IMG/VR virus record: IMGVR_UViG_3300022690_000489
Location: 1 to 37,884 of that record
From: a virus
Strand: one strand, 5' to 3'
Length of the DNA: 37,884 nucleotides
Shown here: piece after piece, positions 17,952-28,571 of the stretch
Numbering within the stretch: the stretch's first letter is position 1
How the letters are laid out: each line of letters starts with the position of its first letter
Made by a program: the position numbers and the translations under genes
Notes under the pieces: generated by a model
Database searches by the model: none
Seen by the model: only the letters and a program-made list of their open reading frames with translations
What the model was told of the DNA's origin: nothing

Positions 17952-19157
17952 TTATCTATTTCTTCTTCCACCGCTATAACGGCCAACAGTTGTTTTACTT
18001 GCCTCGGCTTTGCCCGATAGCTTTTCGCCTGCAATATAACGCATTGCATCGATAGCGTGATTCCATAATTTAATTGGCTTGCCTGTTTTTGCCCCGCTTT
18101 TATCAGTATCCCACATATAAGACCGCAATTCCTTAATAATATTAACGCTCCTTTCGGTTACCAGGAACCGATACTGCTGTAATAACTGTATGCCGTGAAT
18201 GATTGAATCCGGTCCTTTGACGCACGGATAAATTGTCCATCCAAGCCGGCCTATTTCTTCAATGCTTTTCGGCTCGGCGCTATCTGCTATAATTTCAGCA
18301 AATCGAATGTCCATTTCGACCGCTTGCATTTCATTTGAAATATCCGGGTTAGTTAATCCGGTCCTGTAAATCAATTCATCAAATATGATCGTATCATTAT
18401 ACTTGAATAATTCAACAAGCGCGCTCGGATCGTTCGTATAGCCAAAATCAAGCCCGTAGCCCAACGATCTGGCGCCTTCAGGTATGTTAGGCACAATCTC
18501 ATAATCATCGAATATAACGCCTTGCAACGTGCCAAGCAATCCAAGCCCATACACCCGCCACCAATTGGCCCAATATGCCGACGTGTTCGATTTTTCCCTT
18601 GCCTTTTCAATATCATCTACAATCGATTGTTCAAGTGCTTCATTGTCGAGGTATGTTAATACTAATTCTTCAACGTCGCTTTCGCCTAGCAATTCGTCAT
18701 CAACCCAAAATTTATTGGCCGGGTTAAAGTCTAAAAATATGGTGCCGTTTGTTCTTATTGCATAATGGTGGTATTGTTCGAAGGTTATATAAATACACTC
18801 GTTGATAAATAGGATGTCACGCCGGGCGCCTCGCTCATCCTGGGCACTGAAAAACTCCATGTAAGCGCCATTTTTGAAGGTGTATTTTAATAGGGTTTTG
18901 TTGTATCTTTCTTCCTTATATCGAAGTGTAATTTTCATGATTTTTAGGAAGTCTTTCAATGCACCCCGGCGGAGGTGCGGAACGCTTTCCGATATGACTG
19001 AAATTTCAATGCCTGGATTCTCGCACGCCACGTCAATGAGTGTCGCAATAATACCAAATGTTTTAGCGGCCGAGGTGCCGCCCTTAATAACCCTTTTGCG
19101 CTTGGTTAATTCTAGTATTTTATCTATCGCGGTGGTGCGGACAAATTCACTGGTCAT
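17952..19157 (-). CDS. terL: Terminase large subunit
   Basis: 401 aa ATPase/nuclease that packages DNA into proheads. Walker A-type VIKGGTSAAKT at 23-33, Walker B DILFINE at 114-120, coupling motif region around 140, then the RNase H-like nuclease: YGLDFGYTNDPSAL at 234-247 (first Asp), IIADSAEPKSI at 289-299 (second) and HAIDAMRY at 367-374 (third). The GGTSAAKT and INE variants are normal for the PBSX/Terminase_6-like group. The ATG overlaps the stop of the 62-aa membrane gene by 4 nt. Confidence 0.95.
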   Translation of the reverse strand: MTSEFVRTTAIDKILELTKRKRVIKGGTSAAKTFGIIATLIDVACENPGIEISVISESVPHLRRGALKDFLKIMKITLRYKEERYNKTLLKYTFKNGAYMEFFSAQDERGARRDILFINECIYITFEQYHHYAIRTNGTIFLDFNPANKFWVDDELLGESDVEELVLTYLDNEALEQSIVDDIEKAREKSNTSAYWANWWRVYGLGLLGTLQGVIFDDYEIVPNIPEGARSLGYGLDFGYTNDPSALVELFKYNDTIIFDELIYRTGLTNPDISNEMQAVEMDIRFAEIIADSAEPKSIEEIGRLGWTIYPCVKGPDSIIHGIQLLQQYRFLVTERSVNIIKELRSYMWDTDKSGAKTGKPIKLWNHAIDAMRYIAGEKLSGKAEASKTTVGRYSGGRRNR

Positions 19158-19979: not shown

Positions 19980-20096
19980 TCAATTTTTATGTAACACTAT
20001 TGGAAAATCAAATATTTTCATGATTCTTTTGGTCCTGATTATCTCAATCATTTCAAACCGATGTAACGCGTAGCGATATAATTGCCCTTCATTCAT
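19980..20096 (-). CDS. Small basic protein, 38 aa
   Basis: I place the start at the ATG at 20096, which overlaps the TGA of the 36-aa membrane gene (ATGA); the longer 62-codon frame would begin with TTG inside that gene. MNEGQLYRYALHRFEMIEII is followed by RTKRIMKIFDFPIVLHKN. No family recognised. Confidence 0.45.
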   Translation of the reverse strand: MNEGQLYRYALHRFEMIEIIRTKRIMKIFDFPIVLHKN

Positions 20097-20203
20097 GGGT
20101 TTAAAGATACGTCCTTTAAGATTAGCCACATAAAATAGATAGTTATCCCTACTATTAAAATTAAGCAAAGGCAGACGAGCCGAATTGTTTGGTCTTGTTT
20201 CAT
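20093..20203 (-). CDS. Small membrane peptide, 36 aa
   Basis: ATG at 20203, directly after the repeated junction linker and the stop of the 163-aa gene; TGA overlaps the next ATG. Residues 9-29 (LVCLCLILIVGITIYFMWLIL) form one clear membrane span. Not recognised, probably a small inner-membrane early protein. Confidence 0.5.
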   Translation of the reverse strand: MKQDQTIRLVCLCLILIVGITIYFMWLILKDVSLNP

Positions 20204-20228
20204 GGTCACTTACTCTTTATAGTGTTTA
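20201..20228 (-). repeat. Junction linker repeat, copy 1
   Basis: Minus strand AAACACTATAAAGAGTAAGTGA then CCATG. One of four copies of a 22-27-nt string (consensus AAACACCATAAAGAGTAAGTGATATG) that ends one gene and starts the next. Confidence 0.75.
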
Positions 20229-20697
20229 AAAGCTTTTCGAAGGAGGCGTACTTTCCCTCACTATTTGTGATCTCCATTCCTTTAATAAGTAGCCACTCAA
20301 ATGATGATGGGTTTCTATTTATAATGTCTGCAATTTCTTTATCCGCTTTGTGGGATTGTTCTGACTCTTCGGTGGAGTTGTTGGCGTATGCCTGTGCAAA
20401 TTCTTTTAACGCAAATGGCGTCAGTGTACTTACGTTCTGATTGCCTCCAAAATAGGTTTCGAAAAATGTGTCTATGTCAACTTCGTGGGATTGTTCTGAT
20501 TTTTCAAGTTCCAGCAAATAGTAAAAGGCAGATTCTTTGGCATCTGCACCCTCATTTTTTACGCGTAGTTTTTTAATCTCTGTAACTTTGAATTTAGTAT
20601 TTTTACAATACGCCGAAAGTGCAGTCTCAATATTAAATTGGTTCAACCAATTTTTATCATCTGGTTTGTCCCATTCTATTTTCACTGTGATTTCCAT
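20206..20697 (-). CDS. Hypothetical early protein, 163 aa
   Basis: Soluble acidic/helical protein: EITVKIEWDKPDDKNWLNQF (residues 2-21) forms a strand plus turn, followed by long helical segments with two SEQSHE/SEQSHK repeats (around residues 89 and 137). The C-terminus LLNTIKSK is encoded by the junction linker. It has a TAATG junction with a 20-codon frame upstream. No family recognised. Confidence 0.65.
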   Translation of the reverse strand: MEITVKIEWDKPDDKNWLNQFNIETALSAYCKNTKFKVTEIKKLRVKNEGADAKESAFYYLLELEKSEQSHEVDIDTFFETYFGGNQNVSTLTPFALKEFAQAYANNSTEESEQSHKADKEIADIINRNPSSFEWLLIKGMEITNSEGKYASFEKLLNTIKSK

Positions 20698-20759
20698 TAT
20701 TTTTTTATTGTTTTAATAAATTCATCTACTTCCGATATGCTTAAGACTCCTTTACTCAT
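20697..20759 (-). CDS. Possible 20-aa coupled peptide
   Basis: ATG at 20759 inside the end of the 65-aa gene; TAA shares a base with the next start. The peptide MSKGVLSISEVDEFIKTIKK ends in TIKK, similar to the NTIKSK ends produced by the linker repeats, so it may be the displaced end of an earlier version of the 65-aa gene rather than an independent peptide. Confidence 0.3.
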   Translation of the reverse strand: MSKGVLSISEVDEFIKTIKK

Positions 20760-20949
20760 CGCATATAGGAGGATGGCGAGGAGACCCAAATCTTGGATCG
20801 GCTAATTTTTCCTCACTAATTTCAAGCAATTCTTCTGCTCCATTATCTGTATGCTCATTGCTAAAAGCATCAGTTAATAAATCTGGCATTTGAAGTAATT
20901 GATGAATAATCAATACAACTTCTTTTCTCGTAAATTCTTCTTTTTTCAT
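20752..20949 (-). CDS. Hypothetical early protein, 65 aa
   Basis: MKKEEFTRKEVVLIIHQLLQ begins a helical acidic protein (EELLEISEEKLADPRF follows). The last residues, GSPRHPPICDE, are Pro-rich and do not fit the rest, while another frame nearby encodes a helical end VDEFIKTIKK; a recent frameshift is possible. Start ATG comes straight after linker copy 2. Confidence 0.55.
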   Translation of the reverse strand: MKKEEFTRKEVVLIIHQLLQMPDLLTDAFSNEHTDNGAEELLEISEEKLADPRFGSPRHPPICDE

Positions 20950-20973
20950 ATCACTTACTCTTTATGGTGTTTT
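20947..20973 (-). repeat. Junction linker repeat, copy 2
   Basis: Minus strand AAACACCATAAAGAGTAAGTGATATG. In the upstream gene it is read NTIKSK-stop and it delivers the ATG of the 65-aa gene. Confidence 0.75.
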
Positions 20974-21196
20974 TAATTATACTGTCCAATTCCATTTGAT
21001 AATGATCTGCGCTACCCCCTATCGACAAAAGTTCTTTTGCTTTTTTCATCCCCTCAATAAAGTGTAGACTTACCTCCTCTTTGTTGGATTGTTCTAAATG
21101 GTCGATGTAGGTTTCAAATTCTGCGTTCATTGCTAACAATCCATCCCAATCACGACTATAATCTTTTTTATCTGGTCTTACTATTTCTGCCGTCAT
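20951..21196 (-). CDS. Hypothetical early protein, 81 aa
   Basis: Acidic helical protein (MTAEIVRPDKKDYSRDWDGL, then helical FETYIDHLEQSNKEEVSLHF) ending NTIKSK from the linker. Its start belongs to linker copy 3 and its stop to copy 2. No family recognised. Confidence 0.6.
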   Translation of the reverse strand: MTAEIVRPDKKDYSRDWDGLLAMNAEFETYIDHLEQSNKEEVSLHFIEGMKKAKELLSIGGSADHYQMELDSIIKNTIKSK

Positions 21197-21522
21197 ATTA
21201 CAAGCTCTTTACGGTGTTTAAAATAATGATTAATTCCACTTCCTTCTTTTTCAATTTGTCTATGAATATTAAATGCAACCGCAGCAATAGTAACCAGATG
21301 ATGTTTGTACTTGTCGGTATTTTTATCAAAGATATCAACTGCCAACTTACCAACTAGCTTACTAATTACCAGTGCGTAATCATGCGGATATTTAGATTGT
21401 TCTTTTTCAATTCCCCAGCGCTCGATTTGATGTGCAGATTCTAATTTTACACCTTTTAAAAAATCCTCAATTTCTGGGTTATTAATAAGATTCTCTAAAT
21501 ACTGTAACCTGGTTTCTGTCAT
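21193..21522 (-). CDS. MazG-like / nucleotide pyrophosphohydrolase-like protein
   Basis: 109 aa, all helical. ESAHQIERWGIEKEQSKYPHD (residues about 28-48) and VSKLVGKLAVDIFD...KYKHHLVTIAAVAFNIHRQ (about 53-90) resemble the all-alpha MazG-like family carried by phages: Glu in an 'ERWG' helix and a KxxHHLxTIAAxxxxxHR helix. MazG enzymes hydrolyse dNTPs or (p)ppGpp-like nucleotides; the full metal-binding set of acidic residues is not clear here. Its end is linker copy 3 read in a different frame (HRKELVI). Confidence 0.55.
   Translation of the reverse strand: MTETRLQYLENLINNPEIEDFLKGVKLESAHQIERWGIEKEQSKYPHDYALVISKLVGKLAVDIFDKNTDKYKHHLVTIAAVAFNIHRQIEKEGSGINHYFKHRKELVI
21194..21220 (-). repeat. 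Junction linker repeat, copy 3
   Basis: Minus strand AAACACCGTAAAGAGCTTGTAATATG. Similar DNA to the other copies but read in another frame by the gene upstream (HRKELVI-stop instead of NTIKSK-stop), so the conserved feature is the nucleotide sequence. Confidence 0.7.
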
Positions 21523-21546
21523 ATCACTTAGTCTTTATGGTGTTCA
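21520..21546 (-). repeat. Junction linker repeat, copy 4
   Basis: Minus strand AACACCATAAAGACTAAGTGATATG; read NTIKTK-stop by the DnaA-like gene and supplies the ATG of the MazG-like gene. Confidence 0.75.
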
Positions 21547-21913
21547 ATATGCGATTCTCATTTATTTTTGTCATAAACAAATACATTTGATCCGGATCAT
21601 CTTTTGATTGGCCCAAAAGAAACTTGGCTTTCTTTTCACAGTATTCGAACCCTAATTTTAATCTTGAATATATGGCAAGCCTTAAATTGATTTGTTTTCG
21701 TGCGTTCGAAATGGTCGAATGATCACGACCACTAAAGAATAATCCTATTGTTTCAAGTGTGTATTCTTCCAATAAAGTCATAATTAAAATGGCAATAAAT
21801 CGGGCGTCCACAATTTCACGCTTTCGCGAGTGGCCCCTTATCACTTCTTTTGAAATTTTAAAGTGATTAGAACAAACTCCCACCACCATATTAAAAAAAT
21901 TATCTTTGCTCAT
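21524..21913 (-). CDS. Stand-alone DnaA domain IV-like DNA-binding protein
   Basis: 129 aa. GRDHSTISNARKQI at residues 62-75 closely matches the DnaA signature GRDHTTVxHAxxKI in the basic helix-turn-helix that reads DnaA boxes; the preceding SRKREIVDARFIAILIMTLLEEYTLETIGLFF (residues 29-60) matches the upstream part of domain IV (R...V..RqiaMyL...). No AAA+ ATPase domain is present. It probably binds DNA in replication control or competes with host DnaA for its boxes. It lies just downstream of the replication genes and ends in linker copy 4. Confidence 0.8.
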   Translation of the reverse strand: MSKDNFFNMVVGVCSNHFKISKEVIRGHSRKREIVDARFIAILIMTLLEEYTLETIGLFFSGRDHSTISNARKQINLRLAIYSRLKLGFEYCEKKAKFLLGQSKDDPDQMYLFMTKINENRILNTIKTK

Positions 21914-24236: not shown

Positions 24237-24439
24237 AATATCAGCTTTTCAGGTTTGCCCGTTTTATTATTCCATAAATCAAATGTGATCGCGATTTGTA
24301 TGCCATCGTCACGGTTATAAAAAATCCGGTTCTCGTCGTAATCAATATTTTTAACGCCTTGCTTTACAAGGTCGCGGGTAATCGCCGGGGCGACCGCTTG
24401 CAATTCAAGATATTGGATTGAGTCTTTAAGTTTACCCAT
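24233..24439 (-). CDS. Hypothetical 68-aa protein next to RecT
   Basis: Compact alpha/beta protein (MGKLKDSIQYLELQAVAPAI, then GVKNIDYDENRIFYNRDDGI) overlapping the annealing protein gene by 8 nt. Not recognised; might act with RecT, but no motif supports this. Confidence 0.6.
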   Translation of the reverse strand: MGKLKDSIQYLELQAVAPAITRDLVKQGVKNIDYDENRIFYNRDDGIQIAITFDLWNNKTGKPEKLIL

Positions 24440-25409
24440 CTTCCATTGCTTTTTTGTGGGTCAAATTTTTAATCTCTGTTTCATTGCCCGGAAAAGATTC
24501 AACGCCAACTATCGGTTGATTATCTAGTAAATATTTAATCACATTCGACGCCTGATAAGCATAATCTAATGATACAATTTCAGATTGGATTTTTGATTTT
24601 TCGTCTTCGCTCAATATTGATGATATTATAAGCGCTTCAATATACTCTATTTGGTTATGACTCGTTGCTTCAGTTGACCCGCCGGCTATATTTGAAAGCT
24701 CTATAGCTTTTTCGAAGCGCTCACCCTCAATTGTTTCTTGTGCTGTTTTGGGCAAGTGCTTTGAGTGTCGCCTTAAAACTGTCTTTCTAGTCATTTCACC
24801 CTCATCAGTAAGCCAAGGACATGATTTTGTTTTATCTTTTTTATATGCTTTCCACGCGTCGGACCGCTCGCGTATTTCTTCTACGTCTTTCCATGACATT
24901 AATTCAGGATGAAAAGAATTATCATGTAAAATGGCTAATGAGTAAACGCCCTTGATTTCACCCTTCTCGTTTCCAGTTATAATGTATGGTATATGCTTGA
25001 TAATTTTCCGGTCGGTTGCAAGATCGATTTCTATTTCATCGCCTTGATAAATCAGTTGACATTGAATAGACTTAATCGAACCTGAATCGGTCAGTAATTT
25101 TATCAGTCCAATGTATGAGGGGTCTAAAATACATTCCCACTCTTTAAGAGCCTTGTTATATCTAGGAATAAGATAGCATAGTTTCAGAACTGGGTTTAAT
25201 GATAATCCGATTTGGGCAACATTTAAAACGGCTTTTAATATTGATGCTTTATTTGCTGTCTGTAGGAATTCGTTTTTCTCAAGTATCTGCATTGCAAAAG
25301 ACGCCTCTCTTTTAAATGCCGCCTCATCAAAATCACCCCTATCAATAAATTCCGCTCGGATAGGTGCGTAAAATTTTTCGCTTAATGGTGTTAGTTCTTT
25401 TGTGCTCAT
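24432..25409 (-). CDS. recT: RecT-family single-strand annealing protein
   Basis: 325 aa. AFKREASFAMQILEKNEFLQ (residues about 29-48), SILKAVLNVAQIGLSLNPVLKLCYLIPR (about 55-82) and ECILDPSYIGLIKLLTDSGSIKSI (about 93-115) are the conserved RecT core ('a.... a...gl.pnp..g..yliPy...... ...q.gYkGli.La'). It anneals complementary ssDNA in phage recombination. I see no adjacent RecE/lambda-type exonuclease; a partner may be one of the unknown genes upstream. It shares a base with the stop of the 137-aa gene. Confidence 0.9.
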   Translation of the reverse strand: MSTKELTPLSEKFYAPIRAEFIDRGDFDEAAFKREASFAMQILEKNEFLQTANKASILKAVLNVAQIGLSLNPVLKLCYLIPRYNKALKEWECILDPSYIGLIKLLTDSGSIKSIQCQLIYQGDEIEIDLATDRKIIKHIPYIITGNEKGEIKGVYSLAILHDNSFHPELMSWKDVEEIRERSDAWKAYKKDKTKSCPWLTDEGEMTRKTVLRRHSKHLPKTAQETIEGERFEKAIELSNIAGGSTEATSHNQIEYIEALIISSILSEDEKSKIQSEIVSLDYAYQASNVIKYLLDNQPIVGVESFPGNETEIKNLTHKKAMEDG

Positions 25410-27877: not shown

Positions 27878-28057
27878 ATGTCAGATAATCAAAATGAATT
27901 AAGAAACCTGGTCAAAAAAAGGTTTGGTATCAAACAGAAGCAAGCGTGCGTGGAAATCCCTATTGAGAAAGTTTATTTTAACAAGTGGCTTAACAATAAA
28001 CTGAATTTGGGAGAAAGGAAAATCCAAGATATAAAGCAATGGTTAAATGATGAATGA
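27878..28057 (+). CDS. Small helix-turn-helix regulator, 59 aa
   Basis: Begins MSDNQNELRNLVKKRFGIKQ; the segment KRFGIKQKQACVEIPIEKVY then FNKWLNNKLNLGERKIQDIK fits a minimal XRE/Cro-type HTH (helix 2 'KQKQACVEI', recognition helix near 'EKVYFNKWL'). It is the first gene to the right of the divergent control region and may bind the two inverted repeats there. Its stop overlaps the HNH gene start. The assignment is from pattern only. Confidence 0.6.
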   Translation: MSDNQNELRNLVKKRFGIKQKQACVEIPIEKVYFNKWLNNKLNLGERKIQDIKQWLNDE

Positions 28058-28571
28058 GATTTTTAAGAATATAAAGGGTGAGGAATATTATCAGGTTTCA
28101 AATTTTGGAAATGTTAAAAGTTTAAAAAGACTAGTCAATAGCCGGCACCCGAAAGGGCGATTTTTAAAAGAAAGAATCCTAAAGCCGGTTCAAATCAGTT
28201 CGGGATATTTTCAGGTTGGTTTTAGTAAAAACAATTCAAGAAAATTACAATTGGTTCACCGATTAGTAGCGGCTAAATTTATTGCGAATCCTGAAAACAA
28301 ACACTGCATAAACCACAAAGATGGAAACAAGTCTAATAATAATTTAATTAATTTAGAGTGGGTTACATATCATGAAAACTCACTGCACGCAAGTGTCAGC
28401 GGCCTAATGCCTAGGGGTGAAAAACATTCGCTATCTAAACTAACCGATAAGGAGGTTTTTGCTATTAGAGATATTGAAAAACTCACGCTGGCGCGAATTG
28501 CTAAAATATATAATGTTACCGACACGACAATATCTAAAATTATTCTCCGGCGGACATGGGCGCACCTATAA
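28047..28571 (+). CDS. HNH homing endonuclease (NUMOD4-HNH-HTH)
   Basis: 174 aa. IFKNIKGEEYYQVSNFGNVK (residues about 5-24) is a NUMOD4 DNA-binding motif; LVHRLVAAKFIANP (about 68-81) and CINHKDGNKSNNNLINLEWV (about 87-106) are the HNH_3 core; the C-terminal LARIAKIYNVTDTTISKII is an HTH. It has the make-up of free-standing homing endonucleases of phages. Start could be either of two adjacent ATGs (28047 or 28050). Confidence 0.9.
   Translation: MMNEIFKNIKGEEYYQVSNFGNVKSLKRLVNSRHPKGRFLKERILKPVQISSGYFQVGFSKNNSRKLQLVHRLVAAKFIANPENKHCINHKDGNKSNNNLINLEWVTYHENSLHASVSGLMPRGEKHSLSKLTDKEVFAIRDIEKLTLARIAKIYNVTDTTISKIILRRTWAHL

Follow-up and report, generated by a model that had tools for sequence, protein, structure and literature searches.

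A start-associated linker at four gene junctions of a virus genome, with candidate roles in translation and gene exchange

Four near-identical copies of a 21-28-bp sequence lie at gene junctions on the minus strand of a Bacteroidota phage, an IMG/VR virus record of 37,884 bp, the whole of which was analysed and is called here the window, and each copy ends in the ATG of the next gene. We put at roughly 55% the probability that this repeat is a start-associated linker, which would supply stop codons and a start of the non-Shine-Dalgarno type and would double as a seam for the exchange of gene cassettes, functions that we infer from sequence. Acting as nucleotide sequence, a linker copy would give the stop codons that close the frame arriving from upstream. 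It would also give the next small gene an A-rich, Shine-Dalgarno-free translation start, with TAAA some 12-16 nt ahead of the ATG. With one and the same sequence at all seams, a gene and its linker would together form a portable cassette. Annealing at the linkers, probably by the phage's own recombinase (RecT in the window, ERF in many relatives), could then drop, add or swap a gene while the stop and start of its neighbours stay intact.

Linker copies and surrounding genes in the window

The array is located on the minus strand between replication genes, which encode a DnaA C-terminal-domain protein and primosomal-type proteins, and the terminase gene. The linker ATGs start at 20203, 20949, 21196 and 21522. 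The copies and the genes to which the argument refers are the following:

17952-19157, minus strand: terminase large subunit, the basis for finding relatives and for placing their linker arrays
20201-20228, minus strand: linker copy 1, AACACTATAAAGAGTAAGTGACC-ATG; closes the 163-aa gene as NTIKSK-stop and opens a 36-aa membrane-like ORF (20093-20203)
20206-20697, minus strand: uncharacterised 163-aa gene, closed by linker copy 1
20752-20949, minus strand: uncharacterised 65-aa gene, which starts at linker copy 2
20947-20973, minus strand: linker copy 2, AACACCATAAAGAGTAAGTGAT-ATG; closes the 81-aa gene as NTIKSK-stop and opens the 65-aa gene
20951-21196, minus strand: uncharacterised 81-aa gene, flanked by linker copies 3 and 2
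21193-21522, minus strand: 109-aa gene, PHROG 25267-like, of unknown function, between linker copies 4 and 3
21194-21220, minus strand: linker copy 3, AACACCGTAAAGAGCTTGTAAT-ATG; closes the 109-aa gene in another frame as FKHRKELVI-stop and opens the 81-aa gene
21520-21546, minus strand: linker copy 4, AACACCATAAAGACTAAGTGAT-ATG; closes the 129-aa DnaA C-terminal-domain gene as NTIKTK-stop and opens the 109-aa gene
21524-21913, minus strand: gene for a 129-aa protein with the helix-turn-helix domain of the DnaA C-terminus; linker copy 4 closes it, and no linker stands at its own start
24432-25409, minus strand: RecT-family annealing recombinase, candidate enzyme for exchange at linkers

The initial annotation had placed these four copies on the minus strand with coordinates that are right to within a base or two. 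It had also described each copy as the end of one gene and the start of the next, which holds at all four junctions, copy 1 opening only the 36-aa ORF. The tails that it had read are likewise as described, NTIK(S/T)K-stop in copies 1, 2 and 4 and a different frame in copy 3. TGA stands directly before the ATG in copies 1, 2 and 4, copy 1 having one additional base ahead of its ATG, and in copy 3 TGA overlaps the start as ATGA. The genes that flank the four linkers are mutually unrelated, with similarity stopping at the linker, and no copy was found within a gene of the window.

Counted against chance, as had been proposed earlier, the recurrence stands out clearly. A degenerate pattern of the linker has four matches in the window and none in 100 dinucleotide shuffles. 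When a weight matrix built from the 21-nt cores of the four copies was scored over the whole window, exactly four sites emerged, at 31.9, 30.7, 29.9 and 26.1 bits, followed by a fifth-best at 14.1 bits, which falls within the range of top scores from ten randomised windows (7.9-14.5 bits). Since the matrix was made from the same four copies, their own scores are high by construction, and the informative quantity is the gap to the fifth site. Among the 48 gene-start contexts of the window, three pairs agree at 21 of 26 positions, whereas the best pair in 500 column-wise shuffles reached 20 (mean of maxima 17.0).

Several other features of this genome were observed alongside the array. At the junction at 20697 (minus strand), a 20-aa ORF (20694-20759) ends as FIKTIKK-stop directly before the 163-aa gene and resembles a decayed linker tail, with a weight-matrix score not above noise. 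A second direct repeat, encoding (S)EQSHKxD on the minus strand, occurs at 20336-20370 and 20471-20505 within the 163-aa gene and, more weakly, at 21069-21103 within the 81-aa gene. The 129-aa protein is a stand-alone DnaA C-terminal helix-turn-helix domain without the ATPase domain. On the plus strand, opposite to most of the genome, positions 28047-28571 encode a NUMOD4-HNH endonuclease-like protein with a sigma-70 region 4-like C-terminus.

The window linker and linkers A and B in related phages

The terminase of the window shares about 50% identity with its counterpart in Flavobacterium phage FpV9 and 54-58% with those of 80 environmental contigs. Arrays of the window's own linker were not found in any other IMG/VR contig. 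The strict string matched a single IMG/VR contig, antisense inside a 692-aa gene, and this match was taken as chance. A looser, shorter core matched 22 IMG/VR contigs, each with a single copy and without arrays, before unrelated genes and mostly before one recurring 213-aa gene. Close relatives were likewise not detected for the 109-aa gene in IMG/VR, for the window's early genes in 396 Flavobacteriales genomes, or for the array in a DNA search of isolate phages. In ten contigs (L315-L327) of a different phage group, with a GC content of about 45%, AAAGAGTAAGTGATATG stands once, ahead of a conserved 213-aa gene.

Phages with terminases 54-58% identical to that of the window carry arrays of other linkers, designated A (TTTAAATCAGAATAAG-ATG) and B (TTTAAACAACAAGAACA-ATG). 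The initial annotation had held that absence of the string from relatives would count against its proposal; the exact string is indeed absent, but the phenomenon is present in relatives with different strings. These strings emerged when the stretches ahead of ATGs were compared de novo among relatives selected by terminase: 139 start pairs were similar, against 24 in controls placed 60 nt downstream. Under a strict rule for a start-associated repeat (at least 3 starts, with no more than 3 of 18 positions mismatched), 7 of the 88 loci selected by terminase pass, as against none of the controls. Two sequences, A and B, dominate among the relatives. Window linker and linker A are alike codon by codon (T-x-K-S-x-stop), but only about 9 of 20 bases match, and homology between them is not claimed. 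A third candidate, from a Flavobacterium MAG (L007), was dropped after it matched 6 contigs without arrays. A possible further start-associated repeat, AAAGAAAAGTT-ATG, stands before 3 to 7 genes in large phage contigs (L210, L299 and L304).

At least 120 IMG/VR contigs carry linker A and at least 120 carry linker B; these contigs range from about 4 kb to 224 kb, and neither linker is present on both strands of one contig. About 90% of the linkers open ORFs of at least 30 aa, compared with 39% of random ATGs. Successive copies are mostly 150-450 bp apart, and the ORFs are small (median 65 aa). Relative to the terminase (TerL) match, the arrays of the relatives lie 2.1-5.5 kb upstream and that of the window 1.0-2.4 kb upstream, a matching place that makes the window's array their positional equivalent. 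Linker A was found in only 1 of the 396 Flavobacteriales genomes, which marks it as a phage feature rather than a start signal of the host. Most frequent behind both A and B is a gene for small proteins starting M(K)xTAVEWL, of which 81 were seen in IMG/VR contigs (loci L016-L313), several per phage in some; this family was not found in isolate phages.

What is conserved at these junctions is the nucleotide sequence and not a peptide, as copy 3, read in another frame, indicates. The genes upstream of linker A have their stops at -4, -14, -21 and -29 and those upstream of linker B at +1, -15 and -22, so that all three frames are covered. Unrelated upstream proteins end in KQQEQ if their frame passes through linker B, and otherwise at the TAA of the linker itself. 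Tails read in the commonest frame are alike (TFKSE, TFKQQEQ and NTIKSK), but the changing frames rule out a peptide-tail function as the main cause. The frame change in the window and the use of three frames in relatives thus bear out the earlier statement that the conserved entity is DNA or RNA.

Translation starts, gene exchange and rival readings

Start regions in Bacteroidota are Kozak-like and free of Shine-Dalgarno sequences, with loose genome-wide preferences, and translation in F. johnsoniae increases with adenines at -3, -6, -12 and -13 (PMC6847099). Linkers A and B have all four of these adenines. In the window, copies 2 and 4 have A-6, A-12 and A-13 but G at -3, copy 3 has A at -3, -12 and -13, and a TAAA box is common to the window copies. 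In A and B contigs the mismatch distribution is bimodal: most copies are perfect, a few have 1-3 changes, and then background follows. Among unique copies with 1-2 changes, A-12, A-11, A-6 and A-3 of linker A are never altered and -1, -2, -7 and -9 vary; in linker B, A-13, A-10, A-6 and A-4 are never altered and -2, -5, -8 and -11 vary. Overall, adenines at -6 and at about -13 to -11 hardly ever change in imperfect copies, in line with the F. johnsoniae determinants. Starts in general in these phages have A peaks at -13 to -11, and because A-rich starts are the background, the constancy of the adenines supports a role in starting translation without proving it. The translational element suggested in the initial annotation therefore gains indirect support as to its start role: the linkers always end at a start codon, sit in an A-rich Bacteroidota context and, in relatives, vary least at key adenines. 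Linkers would direct translation, and the closeness of stop and start, only a few bases apart in most copies, is compatible with translational coupling. The Bacteroidota -7 element TAHHTTTG occurs in no linker copy (41 in the window against 38 expected), and neither a terminator-like site nor a matching Rfam family was found at the copies; readings as promoter, terminator or RNA family were rejected on these grounds.

Evidence for exchange comes from the relatives. Proteins that follow A and B fall into about 168 families, and 21 of the 53 multi-member families follow both linkers. Among gene pairs with at least 80% nucleotide identity, the upstream DNA is unrelated in 106 of 120 BB, 16 of 26 AA and 17 of 20 AB pairs; these pairs are not independent, and exact duplicates were taken out before counting, which raises the share of pairs with unrelated flanks. 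In 37 BB pairs the gene is shared and the flanks are unrelated on both sides. Where Blast aligns contigs that are otherwise unrelated, 22-23% of the matches stop at a linker in both contigs, compared with 0.7% at random points. In one example, a 174-kb contig matches two others at 94% over 250 bp; the match starts 26-27 nt ahead of a linker ATG and ends 4 nt past the following one. Random points were judged too weak a control for breakpoints and were replaced by other gene junctions in the same arrays, against which homology breaks at 94% of linker junctions versus 81% of the others. Breaks at 81% of non-linker junctions imply that most of this signal is gene-by-gene mosaicism, with a modest excess at linkers. 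The same gene is also found behind A in one phage and behind B in another; the sole route is therefore not homology at linkers, and selection or homogenisation toward the phage's own linker is also needed.

For phages with linkers A and B, sequence comparison strongly supports the view that linkers mark seams where single genes were swapped between viruses. The suggestion of cassette boundaries in the initial annotation is thereby supported for these phages, through gene exchange between copies; no close relative carries the window's own linker. We infer further that recombination uses linker homology rather than merely falling at gene boundaries, and the translation and recombination roles would extend to the window's own linker. 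Candidate recombinases are at hand: the window encodes RecT, and ERF genes are present in 15 of 24 records that carry linkers. Relatives selected by terminase and not by linker have ERF at about the same rate (8 of 13), and it was rejected as a mark of linker phages. Rad52-like recombinases act on short or diverged homology, and the minimal pairing segment of Red-beta, 23-27 bp (PMC3945230), is close to the length of these linkers.

Start regions could be kept alike simply because selection favours an initiation or termination-reinitiation sequence that the phage prefers, exchange then being ordinary gene-by-gene mosaicism. Such a purely translational signal, unlikely but deserving serious weight, would account for linkers that always end at ATG, for the low variation at key adenine positions, for genes that carry whichever linker their phage uses and for the frequent homology breaks at non-linker junctions. 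It accords poorly with near-identity over 16-28 nt, which goes beyond loose start preferences, with mismatches that are bimodal and dominated by perfect copies, with host genomes that do not use the linker sequence and with breaks somewhat commoner at linker junctions than elsewhere. Repeated exchange might, on the other hand, homogenise a stretch of homology that has no translation role, and the exchange seams in relatives, the same bimodal distribution and the recombinase genes would all be expected of a site of this kind. The fixed place at ATG, the single orientation and the non-random variation around translation determinants would not, and genes pass between A and B contexts; we regard a pure recombination site as very improbable.

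The linkers may also be remnants, functionless tails shared because gene ends were copied as small genes duplicated or inserted in the recent past. Three window copies do share frame and tail (NTIKSK/TK), and an 18-residue tail common to genes 67 and 68 of mycobacteriophage Island3 has been explained by recombination (PMC3029335). However, the flanking genes are unrelated and their similarity ends at the linker, copy 3 retains the sequence in another frame, and the linkers of relatives recur over hundreds of contigs and many gene families, which makes a duplication fossil improbable. Some repeated asymmetric sites in phages act as operators; the stoperators of cluster A, which have been contrasted with Start-Associated Sequences, or SAS (PMC3203893), are an example. 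Yet an operator, stoperator or internal promoter that happens to lie at gene starts is scarcely plausible for sites that are locked to start codons and to one strand and that show no -7 element, terminator-like site or Rfam family.

The start-associated linker with a second role in exchange, which we prefer to these alternatives, admits a wider and more tentative generalisation, to which we give somewhat less than even odds. Bacteroidota phages may have an integrase-free gene-cassette system, in which lineage-specific linkers combine a stop, a Shine-Dalgarno-free start and a short-homology recombination site, and by which small accessory genes circulate among otherwise unrelated phages with contigs of up to 224 kb. 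The role of short conserved boundary sequences in phage mosaicism has long been debated, with few examples on which to test it. Because the linkers are numerous, near-identical and located at seams where the same gene entered different phages, they open this question to statistics and experiment. They also suggest how an accessory gene could enter an operon and find immediate expression in hosts whose translation does without Shine-Dalgarno sequences.

Comparison with known systems

Within a limited collection of papers, no description of the window linker, A or B was found. The closest known kind appears to be the SAS of cluster K mycobacteriophages, with consensus GGGATAGGAGCCC and an AGGAG Shine-Dalgarno core (PMC3203893). 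These short asymmetric repeats precede the starts of small non-structural genes, nearly always in one orientation, stand before different gene families in different phages, sometimes include the upstream stop and are rare in host genomes; a role in translation was proposed but is unproven (PMC3203893). Similarly, the window, A and B linkers stand directly before start codons, in one orientation and in a non-structural region. A and B precede different gene families in different phages, and the four genes of the window are mutually unrelated. In contrast to the cluster K repeats, the linkers lack the GGGATAGGAGCCC consensus and the AGGAG core, reach the ATG and belong to phages of a host group that does not use Shine-Dalgarno sequences, and gene exchange at the linker sites is documented here, for the relatives.

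Short conserved boundary sequences have been proposed for phage mosaicism and were said to be unidentifiable at most mosaic boundaries (PMC3029335). The linkers resemble them as short homology at gene seams that would allow precise recombination of modules. They differ in that a single linker, start codon included, is found at numerous seams of a genome and in many phages. The arrays may also resemble the ninR region of lambda, where small early genes are chained and overlapping and both the stop-start overlap and segments of the ribosome site are conserved. With the Kozak-like starts of F. johnsoniae, linkers A and B share an A-rich composition and adenines around -12/-13, -6 and -3; unlike those starts, the linkers are near-identical to one another and confined to the early-gene array of the phage.
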